NCBI RefSeq assembly: GCF_039545095.1
Contig: NZ_BAABRS010000001.1
Location: 1-64,000, forward strand
Source: Fodinibius salicampi
GTDB taxonomy: Bacteria > Bacteroidota > Rhodothermia > Balneolales > Balneolaceae
Direction of reading: 5' to 3'
DNA length: 64,000 nt
The notes beneath the pieces were generated by a model, which did no database searches, was not told where the DNA came from, and saw only the letters and a program-made list of their open reading frames with translations. Made by a program: the position numbers and the translations under genes. Below are positions 22,643 to 30,784 of the stretch, in pieces. Numbering within the stretch: position 1 is the first letter of the stretch; each line of letters begins with the position of its first letter.

Positions 22643-23587
22643 TTATGACGCTTTTTCTTCGCTCAATTTCTGTTTCCGGGCGTATTCTTCGGCAGCTTCA
22701 CGTACCCACTTACCGTTTTCGTGAGCCTCACGCCGTGTGTTTATGCGTTGACGATTCATAGGTCCATTACCTTTGACTACGTTCCAAAACTCATCCCAGT
22801 CAATTTCACCAAATACCCAGTGGCCGGTTTCTTCATTGAATTTGAGATCAGGATCCGGAATTTCGAGACCTACCGTATGGGCTTCCTGCACGTGGCGATC
22901 CACAAAGCTCTGTCGGAGCTCGTCGTTTGTCTTTGATTTTACGCCCCATTTGATCAGCTCGGCACTATTGGGTGAATCCTCATCATGGGGGCCAAACATC
23001 ATGAGTGTAGGCCACCACCAGCGGTTGACCGCATCCTGGATCATCTCCTGTTGCTCAGGCGTGCCATCAGCCATGGTAGCCACCATTTCATACCCTTGCT
23101 TCTTATGAAAACTTTCTTCCTTGCAAATGCGTACCATTGCCCGGGCATAAGGCCCGTAAGAACTTCGTGCCAGCATGGTCTGATTGATGATCGCAGCTCC
23201 ATCTACCAGCCAGCCGATGACAGCTATATCTGCCCAGGAAAGGGTCGGATAATTAAATATGCTGGAATACTTGGCATGGCCATTCAGAAGGTCATCGATA
23301 ACTTCTTGGCGACTGGCACCCAGCGTTTCTGTAGCGCTATACAAATACAGGCCGTGCCCTGCTTCATCCTGGACTTTGGAAAGCAGAATCATTTTACGGC
23401 GAAGCGAAGGAGCGCGGGTAATCCAGTTCCCTTCCGGAAGCATGCCAACAATCTCTGAGTGAGCATGCTGAGACATCATCCGGATGAGCTGTTGCCGATA
23501 TCGCTCCGGCATCTGATCTTTGGGTTCTATAGTTTCTCCCTTGTCGATACGCTCCTGAAAAGTGGTATTGTTATTCTCTTTTTCCAT
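22643..23587 (-). CDS. paaA: Phenylacetyl-CoA 1,2-epoxidase catalytic subunit PaaA
   Basis: PaaA is the diiron oxygenase that forms the ring 1,2-epoxide of phenylacetyl-CoA. In the 314-residue protein the diiron ligands appear in KVQDEAGHG (Glu/His, 71-79) and KEESFH (156-161); [16 protein letters not shown] is the conserved C-terminal block. It is the first gene of the minus-strand paa operon; a reductase gene (paaE) that would deliver electrons is not present in this window. Confidence 0.95.
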
Positions 23588-23636
23588 TGGCTGAAAGTTT
23601 TATGGAAATATTTCTCTATATAGCCAACATATACAG

Positions 23637-23668
23637 GAACATGAAATTTAACAAATACATTCATGTTC
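23637..23668. promoter_or_regulatory. Inverted repeat before paaA
   Basis: GAACATGAA (23637-23645) and TTCATGTTC (23660-23668) are perfect 9-base arms 23 bases apart centre to centre, which is about two helical turns. The repeat lies 50 bases before the paaA start, a good place for an operator of the paa operon. It could alternatively be a leader stem-loop. No PaaX or PaaR gene is in the window. Confidence 0.5.
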
Positions 23669-23738
23669 TTTGACGCTTGAACAGGTTAAGAGCACATTAC
23701 TCACATACAGGAGGCTTCTCTTAATAAAATCTTCATAG

Positions 23739-23824
23739 CGTTATACCCTCTTACACGCCGTGTTATAACTCCTAACAAGTCGTGTTACGATCCCTAACCC
23801 TACGTGTTATGACCCCTAACGGCT
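23739..23824. repeat. Array of three to four 22-bp tandem repeats upstream of paaA
   Basis: Three consecutive 22-base units begin at 23759, 23781 and 23803. Each starts CGTGTTA and continues to CCTAAC, and each contains the inverted pair GTTA-N7-TAAC. A weaker fourth unit precedes them (23739-23758). The region is the 466-base gap between divergent paaA and the TPR-LuxR gene, which otherwise holds only the inverted repeat at 23637 and no gene I can support. Twenty-two bases is two DNA turns, so all copies face the same side of the helix, as in arrays of regulator sites. Confidence 0.75.
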
Positions 23825-24053
23825 ATAGGTTCAAATCTAACCCAGCTATATTAGCTGCTGCAAAAATACAGCTCCACATTCAGCCCCAAAAAATGAATCA
23901 AAGAACTTATGAAGATCTTTTCAAAGTCTTCATAAATTTGAAGGGAAATACTTTATTTTTATTAAAAAAGCTGAAAAATTTGTAAGGTGTCATTTGAGGG
24001 ATTACATATAAAGAGAGAGTATGACTTGGGAGGTTTCTTGAAATAGGGATTAT

Positions 24054-26003
24054 GTGAGCATGCTGATATTAAAACGAATGGTTAAATACTCGGAGAATAT
24101 ATCGCATGGGTATCTACGTTCATGTGTGATATGTGGGTTGATCCTAATCTTATCAGTATCCCACCTTTACGGCCAGCTTGCTCCTAAGACTGATAGTTTA
24201 AAAGCACAGTTGCAGGAAGCCCGGGAAGAACAGCGAATTGAGATATTATTGAAGCTTAGTGATCAAGTGCGTCGTTCAGATATGGAGGCGGCCATTGATT
24301 ATGCGCGGAAAGCGGTTGATCTCTCCGAGAGAGTTGCCGGGGAAGAGTTGCGGGGAGAAAGTCATCGCAATCTGGGGCGGTTACTTTCTATGAACGGAAA
24401 ACATCCGGTGGGACTTCAACATTTGTCAGAAGCAAAGAGAATTTTTGAACAAATTGGTGCTCAGGATAAAATTGTGGCTACGCTCGAAAATGTAGGTGCG
24501 TTATACAGAAGACAGGGTGACTATAGTACAGCCCTGGAATATTATTATGACGCCCTTGATTTGAAAGAAAAGCAAAATAATGAGACCGACCTGCCACACA
24601 CGCTTATTAATATTGGATATATCAATGAAAAATTGGGTCAGATGTCAAAGGCTATTTCCTTTTATGAAAGGGCATTAGAAATTAGCCAGCGTAATGATAA
24701 TCCCAATGACATAGCTATTAATGCCGTTCAATTGAGCAATGCATATGACTCCATAGGAGATAATGACCAAGCTCTGGAAATTATGAATATTGCACTTGAT
24801 GCTTCCAAACGGCTTCCGGGAGAGCACGCTATGGCAAGTATTTTGTTAGAAATTAGTGAGTTATATAGAAACGAAAAATCGTACGATCTGGCCAAGGAAG
24901 CCAATAGCGAGGCGCTGGAGTTAGCACAAAATATGTCTGATAATAGGTTAGAGGCTCTTAGCCTAAAGAATATTGCTACTCTACATGCCGAACAGAACAA
25001 TTTAGAGGCTCAAACTAACTATTTGCTTCAGGCTATTCCGTTGTTCGAAAAAAGTGGAATGCGGGAAGAGGTGATTCAAAGCAGATATCAAATTGCCAGT
25101 AACTATCTTATTTCCGGGAGCATTACTGAATCTATTGAGATGACAAAACACGGACTTGATGATGCTGAAGAAATAGAATCCCTGGAACTAATCCGCAAAG
25201 GACTTGAAGTACTTACTAAGGGATATAAAAAGATAGGTGATCTGGAGAATGCGTTATTAACGCAGGATGAATTGATTGAAGTTAAAGATAGTTTATTTGA
25301 TCAGACAAGATCCCGGCAAATAACAGAAATGCAAACTAAATATGAGACGGAACAAAAAGAACAGGAAATTGCATTACTTCAGAAGGAAAGAGAACAGCAA
25401 GCAATGCTTCGCAATGCCTTTCTTATTGGGATTCTTCTTATTGGCATCATCGGGATTCTTGTGTATAACAGGCAGCGGCTAAAAATAAAAAAGAAACAGA
25501 CAGAATTGGAAAATACCCGGCTGAAGGAGCAACAGCTGGAACAAGATCTGGAGTTTAAAAATAAACAGCTAACCACCCATAGCCTTCATCTTGTCCAAAA
25601 AAATGAGGCGATGAAGGAGTTGAAGGAGAAGATCAACGAAATGCGCCATAAGGATAATGGCAACGTGAACAGATCATTGCAAAAACTGCAAAATCTGGTA
25701 GATTACAGTTATAGTCTGGATGAAGATTGGGAACAGTTTCGTCTTTATTTTGAAGAAGTGCATGATCATTTCTTTGATATTCTCAAAAAGAAATATCCCG
25801 ACCTGACTCCCAATGAGCTACGTCTTTCAGCTCTGGCTAAATTAAACCTGTCTATTAAGGAAACCGCCACTATTATGGGCATTACTCCCAACAGCGTGAA
25901 GACGGCGCGTTATCGACTTCGAAAAAAGCTGGATATTGAAACCGAAGAGAACTTGACAGAGTTTATGATGGAAATTGAAAAAAAAGGTAAGAAACTTAAC
26001 TGA
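24054..26003 (+). CDS. TPR-containing membrane regulator with C-terminal LuxR-type HTH
   Basis: The 649-residue protein has an N-terminal signal/anchor hydrophobic segment (about 24-40, ILILSVSHLYGQ), tetratricopeptide repeats (about 75-400; for example ALEYYYDALDLKEKQNNETD), a membrane helix (AFLIGILLIGIIGILVYN, about 455-472), a coiled coil and a DNA-binding helix-turn-helix near 594-632 (LNLSIKETATIMGITPNSVKTARYRLRKKL). The sensor part is therefore periplasmic and the HTH cytoplasmic. Start is uncertain: GTG at 24054, ATG at 24060 or ATG at 24078. It is divergent from the paa operon and may control it, but nothing in the sequence proves that. Confidence 0.8.
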   Translation: MSMLILKRMVKYSENISHGYLRSCVICGLILILSVSHLYGQLAPKTDSLKAQLQEAREEQRIEILLKLSDQVRRSDMEAAIDYARKAVDLSERVAGEELRGESHRNLGRLLSMNGKHPVGLQHLSEAKRIFEQIGAQDKIVATLENVGALYRRQGDYSTALEYYYDALDLKEKQNNETDLPHTLINIGYINEKLGQMSKAISFYERALEISQRNDNPNDIAINAVQLSNAYDSIGDNDQALEIMNIALDASKRLPGEHAMASILLEISELYRNEKSYDLAKEANSEALELAQNMSDNRLEALSLKNIATLHAEQNNLEAQTNYLLQAIPLFEKSGMREEVIQSRYQIASNYLISGSITESIEMTKHGLDDAEEIESLELIRKGLEVLTKGYKKIGDLENALLTQDELIEVKDSLFDQTRSRQITEMQTKYETEQKEQEIALLQKEREQQAMLRNAFLIGILLIGIIGILVYNRQRLKIKKKQTELENTRLKEQQLEQDLEFKNKQLTTHSLHLVQKNEAMKELKEKINEMRHKDNGNVNRSLQKLQNLVDYSYSLDEDWEQFRLYFEEVHDHFFDILKKKYPDLTPNELRLSALAKLNLSIKETATIMGITPNSVKTARYRLRKKLDIETEENLTEFMMEIEKKGKKLN

Positions 26004-30166: not shown

Positions 30167-30784
30167 CTAGTTACTGCTATCAAATAATAACTGAAGATAA
30201 CTATGGTAATTAGAAAGTTGCTGGGCAATGACTTTATTTTCGTTCAGGGATTGAGACAAAACGAACGATCCTTCGAAAATCACCATCAGCATGTCCGCCA
30301 GGCTTTGAAGGTTCACGTCTTGGCGGGGATGATGCTTCTGTTCGATTTTTTTGAGCTTATCAAGAACCCTCGTCCGCCATAGCAGCATGGATTCCCGTAT
30401 AATTTCCAAAATTTTGTGGTCGAAAAGCTCCGATTGTTGAAGATAGGAGGCAAACAGGCATCCCGGGAAAGGTTCTTCCAGTGATTCAATTTCCTGTTCA
30501 AAAAGTTTTATAAAAATAAGTAATTGTTGTAGTGGGTCGTCACTAAGCCCTTCTGCTTTGACCAGTGTTTGTTCGAGGTGCTCGGCATCCTGGTCTGCAT
30601 AACGTTGTACCAGCTCTTCTCCCAGTTCTGCTTTGCTGGAGAAGTGATGAAAAAAGGCGCCTTTGCTTACACCTGCCTCTTCGATGACATTACTTACTGT
30701 TGTCCCTCCGAATCCTTTATCAAGAATGATCGATTCGGCGGCATTCATGATTTTTGTACGGGTGTTTTCGGGATCTTTGTTCAT
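30167..30784 (-). CDS. TetR/AcrR-family transcriptional regulator
   Basis: The 205-residue protein has the N-terminal TetR HTH: RTKIMNAAESIILDKGFGGTTVSN followed in two helices by VIEEAGVSKGAFFHHFSSKAELGEELV. The C-terminal ligand domain shows no recognised pocket. It is divergent from the methyltransferase gene at 30978, with two operator-like sites in the 193-base gap, so it likely represses that operon and itself. The inducer is unknown. Confidence 0.88.
   Translation of the reverse strand: MNKDPENTRTKIMNAAESIILDKGFGGTTVSNVIEEAGVSKGAFFHHFSSKAELGEELVQRYADQDAEHLEQTLVKAEGLSDDPLQQLLIFIKLFEQEIESLEEPFPGCLFASYLQQSELFDHKILEIIRESMLLWRTRVLDKLKKIEQKHHPRQDVNLQSLADMLMVIFEGSFVLSQSLNENKVIAQQLSNYHSYLQLLFDSSN

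Follow-up and report, generated by a model that had tools for sequence, protein, structure and literature searches.

A phased 22-bp repeat array of Fodinibius salicampi as a probable solo copy of a dispersed element paired with HU-DUF4469 genes

Short palindromic elements that are dispersed in intergenic regions and tied to one gene are known from the REPIN-RAYT systems (PMC3116915, PMC8049555). The present analysis concerns an array of phased dyads in a 64,000-nt stretch of the F. salicampi genome, hereafter the window. Among known kinds of element, this array would appear to work most like a REPIN-RAYT system. Both show a one-to-one tie to a gene located beside one of the copies, and both form several independent families per genome. 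They differ, however, in their components. The partner of the arrays has an HU fold and is not a Y1 transposase, the repeats are phased 22-24-bp dyads in place of a pair of REP hairpins, and an array family counts 1-5 copies as opposed to dozens to hundreds. No cognate Y1 (RAYT) gene flanked by repeats is present in the window, and the array does not consist of REP hairpins (20-40 bp, tagged by GTAG or CGTC) arranged as inverted pairs in high copy.

The arrays also recall MITEs, being non-coding, bounded, intergenic sequences of about 90-280 bp at lineage-specific sites. Unlike MITEs, they contain internal phased repeats and are tied to an HU-like gene, and no parent transposon was found for them. 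Binding sites that recur at intervals of whole helical turns, beside the gene of their binding protein, are typical of parS or parC-type centromere arrays and of plasmid iterons. Here the likeness is one of geometry only (whole-turn spacing next to a partner gene): no ATPase or replication protein was seen beside the arrays that were read, several gene-array pairs occur per chromosome, and the partner has an HU fold in contrast to the HTH or RHH folds of those systems.

The partner protein belongs to the HU/IHF superfamily and combines the domains HU-DNA_bdg (PF14848) and DUF4469 (PF14734), like PDB 4fmr and TDE_2259. HU-fold proteins are usually regarded as weakly specific DNA benders. Related proteins, named HU-HIG, were reportedly described by Burroughs and colleagues when they surveyed HU/IHF clades in 2017. 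Both domains are annotated in TDE_2259 of Treponema denticola, for which no mention of a cognate array was found (PMC12724145), nor is one mentioned in the other open papers found. The pairing of HU-DUF4469 genes with arrays seems to be undescribed, as no description was found in open-licence papers; an earlier one elsewhere is possible.

Anatomy and sister copies of the window array

The array is located between paaA and a gene encoding a TPR protein. Direct reading of the sequence gives four 22-bp units, each with a GTTA-N7-TAAC dyad and spaced by exactly 22 bp (Table 1). These dyads alternate with TAAC-N7-GTTA dyads, so that inverted half-sites follow one another at 11-bp intervals. TRF picks up the array at 23759-23820 with a period of 22, and lag 22 at this position is the top self-match of the whole window (0.68; lags 12-59 scanned). 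Genome-wide, the strict two-unit pattern occurs six times per strand, and never in the reversed control. The initial annotation had described a phased 22-bp GTTA-N7-TAAC array with one weaker unit, and direct reading, TRF, the lag scan and the pattern count all confirm this description.

Table 1. Coordinates of the array, its dyads and the neighbouring features in the window
Feature	Position	Strand	Sequence or remark
Whole array element (probable solo copy)	23735..23826 (about)	+	four 22-bp units; ends roughly inverted, ATAGCGTTA (23735-23743) / TAACGGCTAT (23817-23826)
Unit 1, weak	23740..23754	+	GTTATACCCTCTTAC
Unit 2	23762..23776	+	GTTATAACTCCTAAC
Unit 3	23784..23798	+	GTTACGATCCCTAAC
Unit 4	23806..23820	+	GTTATGACCCCTAAC
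Alternating dyad between units 1 and 2	23751..23765	.	TTACACGCCGTGTTA; read directly
Alternating dyad between units 2 and 3	23773..23787	.	TAACAAGTCGTGTTA; read directly
Alternating dyad between units 3 and 4	23795..23809	.	TAACCCTACGTGTTA; read directly
paaA, left neighbour	22643..23587	-	context only
TPR protein with C-terminal HTH, right neighbour	24054..26003	+	context only; comes after hppD-hmgA in relatives
Conserved patch upstream of paaA, outside the array	23626..23664	-	sequence comparison with relatives

The element of about 90 bp is also present at two other sites of the window genome (G000; C1:685 k and C1:1432 k), and three copies were found in another genome of the genus (G007; C22:182 k, 292 k and 418 k). 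Three sites in G000 and two in G007 carry the strict pattern, with none in the reversed control. A sequence model of five copies matched the window array at 23736-23824 (E 1.7e-23); it recovers the strict-pattern sites with E < 1e-18 and, more weakly, one further copy in G007 (E 1.8e-6). Among 92 genomes of the family, matches at E <= 0.01 are confined to G000 and G007. One weak match in a third genome (G008, E 0.037) lies upstream of blaI, as does one of the G007 copies. The genes that adjoin the sister copies of the window array are unrelated. No occurrence of the array pattern was detected in viral contigs or in plasmids, and phages gave a chance 25-bp match only.

Over 21 units of the window array's family, half-sites hold about 1.5-1.6 bits per position versus 0.6-0.7 for the spacers. 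As far as sequence can tell, this conservation is the mark of a recognised dyad and not of a drifting satellite. The initial annotation had set against its own reading a neutral minisatellite, here one grown by slippage. Tandem 22-bp units, 3 to 6 per copy, agree with such an origin, but it is barely credible: the units are divergent, with conserved half-sites and variable spacers, copies at distant loci correspond end to end, and arrays are associated with a gene. Occurrence of the array at several loci and constraint within its units dispose of this objection.

Two other identities were considered. The window copy folds little better than shuffled sequences (z -0.6 to -2.5, other copies reaching -6.8), and the alignment of copies contains no base pair changed on both sides; a structured RNA was therefore not adopted. 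An Rfam scan of the array region gave nothing near any gathering score. The integron attC site was dropped on inspection, with no matching core boxes.

Arrays behind HU-DUF4469 genes

The copy at 1432 k (array C1:1431919-1432007; L015:5918-6011) is located 76 bp 3' of a gene at G000 C1:1431134. The product of this gene contains PF14848, an HU-like DNA-binding domain, and PF14734, the Ig-like DUF4469, both above the curated Pfam cut-offs (94.9 bits versus 30, E 4.8e-27; 76.1 versus 22.6, E 2.3e-21). Its nearest solved structure is PDB 4fmr (E 8.7e-8), whose function is undescribed. The window array shares its unit sequence with the array behind this gene in the same genome and is, judged by that unit, a member of the gene's family. 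Another, weaker match of the model in the same genome (L146) also lies just 3' of an HU-DUF4469 gene, with a different unit, GTTAGTACCCCTAACACTGGGA. The cognate gene was not found in G007, despite its three arrays of the window's family. Two further HU-DUF4469 copies in G000 are broken by stop codons (C2:37178-37870 and C5:137214-137822; L169 and L170).

The association extends across taxa. An array with a period of 22-24 bp is present within 500 bp past the stop codon of 33 out of 40 HU-DUF4469 genes, versus 1 of 97 control genes chosen clean of array loci (Fisher p 1e-23). Arrays were scored over 44 compared positions at lags 22-24 and accepted at a score >= 0.59, the 99th percentile for random 600-nt fragments taken from the window. 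Within the genus, 18 of 23 genes have such an array, and 15 of 17 do outside it; the latter set covers further Bacteroidota families, Parabacteroides distasonis and Treponema saccharophilum, as well as two gut scaffolds catalogued as phage. Arrays are essentially absent upstream of HU-DUF4469 genes, and the sole upstream positive (L201) reflects a short locus, in which the upstream stretch overlaps the array downstream of the gene itself. Two of the seven genes outside the criterion, which are the two misses outside the genus, carry an array 0.7-1.2 kb downstream (L199, score 0.95; L308, score 0.70). No array was found for gene L158, and a few other genes match weakly. A single-protein scan of viral contigs detected no relative.

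Gene-linked arrays contain 3-6 dyad units, with periods of 22 (8 genes), 23 (23 genes) or 24 bp (2 genes). The 3' flanks of the genus genes harbour 22- or 23-bp arrays whose units differ from one another (ATCCTGTAAGGAT, CCTTATAAGG, TATCCCTTAAGGGATA, GACATACTAATGTC, GTTATTAGTATAAC and others). Likeness between arrays is seen for the closest protein pairs only and is at background below about 60% identity. Overall, protein and array similarities are weakly correlated (Spearman 0.15; 61/2000 permutations), since the similarity of units soon falls to background level as they diverge. Three species have an HU-DUF4469 gene at an equivalent locus, before a patatin-like gene (L150, L151 and L154); two of them share a unit and the third differs, so that the unit has been exchanged at an unchanged locus.

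In the P. distasonis sequence NZ_OY725812.1 (L312), an HU-DUF4469 gene and its array are found in opposite orientation within a run of ABC transporter genes. The arrangement looks as if it had been inserted as a module, and the array is bounded by CTGCTCG/CGAGCAG.

Nearly every HU-DUF4469 protein thus has a private array of dyad units 22-24 bp, or two helical turns, apart, located directly 3' of the gene that encodes it. We propose that the protein binds this cognate array as dimers, which would stack on one helix face at two-turn intervals and may build a wrapped or bridged nucleoprotein. From the gene-linked copy, the array could have spread as a small mobile palindromic element. The window array is probably a solo (orphan) copy of such a short, dispersed, mobile phased array, recognised by an HU-DUF4469 protein. 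For Bacteroidota and Spirochaetota in general, we lean towards a two-part system in which a sequence-specific HU protein seeds solo copies of its private array and re-specifies quickly between paralogues, the system being selfish, chromosome-bridging, or both. If this is true, these genes and arrays form a natural library of protein-site pairs that would reveal how HU-like proteins gain specificity, and the arrays represent dispersed elements or chromosome organisers of a new kind. The proposal also makes a clear prediction for the PF14848/PF14734 family of gut and marine bacteria, whose function is undescribed.

Dispersal of solo arrays

When 17 gene-linked arrays were used as DNA queries against the genus, they recovered, besides themselves, some 25 additional arrays, most of which share a genome with their cognate gene. 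Solo arrays, that is, intergenic arrays beyond the gene-linked ones, total about 30. HU-DUF4469 gene matches number 24 and occur in 6 of the 12 genomes of the genus. The DNA search found no arrays in the six genomes without the gene, which is suggestive and not a clean test because all queries come from genomes with the gene. Thirty-one of 32 solo arrays are clear of predicted genes, and the other one overlaps nothing but a reading frame of 103 codons. Their neighbouring genes are divergent in 8 cases, tandem in 14 and convergent in 9, with no promoter preference. Solo arrays are lineage-specific: the array is absent from the site behind an NADH dehydrogenase (NDH) gene in 9/9 relatives, from that behind mutS in 11/11 and from that behind a hydrolase gene in 5/5.

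This distribution bears on the possibility that the arrays are chromosome-organising sites, where HU-DUF4469 proteins bridge a few dispersed arrays and shape nucleoid domains as a host function and not a selfish one. The HU fold, the two-turn phasing, the small number of cognate sites per genome and the intergenic placement are all compatible with such a role. However, the genes are patchy, lacking in half of the genus and in the rest of the family, and array sites are not conserved between species, one pair excepted. We consider this explanation possible but doubtful.

Within one family, copies can be aligned over their full length, and the linkers between their units are conserved (L149, L244, L245 and L247). 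Two solo copies of the L146 family have a common left boundary, which falls within the final codons of the gene, and solo arrays that carry the last 13 or so codons of the DUF4469 gene share one left boundary (L145:4925-5143, L234 and L146). End-to-end copies and a shared boundary indicate that defined units are copied. Only 8 of 46 arrays have inverted ends above the null, and terminal inverted repeats were rejected as a general feature. No transposase domain is present.

Such copies might instead be miniature elements moved in trans by a Y1 (RAYT/IS200-like) or other transposase, with the HU-DUF4469 gene merely a frequent neighbour or passenger. Bounded copies, some with inverted ends, at lineage-specific intergenic sites would be expected of these elements, and Y1-type genes do occur near two arrays (L015 and L234), the L234 array being 153 bp from one. 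But these are the only Y1 genes near 48 array loci, as opposed to 33 of 40 HU-DUF4469 genes with arrays, each with its own unit, and no array seen is a hairpin REP. Mobilisation in trans therefore appears unlikely, and the Y1 transposase was rejected as the partner.

At G000:C1:1076.3 k (L238), a reading frame next to a solo array resembles the start of archease fused to the end of RtcB, probably as the result of a deletion.

The paaA junction

According to the initial annotation, the phasing was typical of regulator arrays and the array might form a new control element of the phenylacetate pathway in this lineage, with the HTH gene at 24054 among the candidate regulators. The comparison with relatives that it called for gave a different picture. 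paaA was found in nine other genomes of the genus, none of which has the array at this site. In these nine relatives paaA is divergent from hppD, and in the six that were read beyond this point hmgA comes after hppD, with a TPR-LuxR-type gene following directly or past other genes. In G000, hppD-hmgA is gone from the paaA site (hppD also from the window), and the array fills the new paaA-TPR junction at 23588-24053, where the two genes were lost.

That the array is an operator specific to this lineage, with paaA or the TPR gene under its control, is very improbable. Divergent genes do flank the array, which is about 150 bp away from the start of paaA and 72 bp from the conserved patch upstream of paaA. 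However, paaA stands without an array in the nine relatives, the sister copies lie beside unrelated genes, and solo arrays have no bias towards promoters. The conserved patch itself is the likelier candidate for a paa operator or promoter: it is about 92% identical in five relatives (38-39 bp compared) and 76% identical in another (37 bp), and contains the inverted AACATGAA/TTCATGTT.

Phased sites for a DNA-binding protein thus survive as the best reading of the array, while paa control is unsupported. The HTH/TPR gene gives way as partner to the HU-DUF4469 protein, encoded 1.4 Mb away. As a solo copy of an HU-DUF4469 element, the window array would affect paaA only incidentally, if at all. 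A TetR-family regulator (PF00440) is encoded in the window at 30167-30784, about 6.6 kb from paaA.
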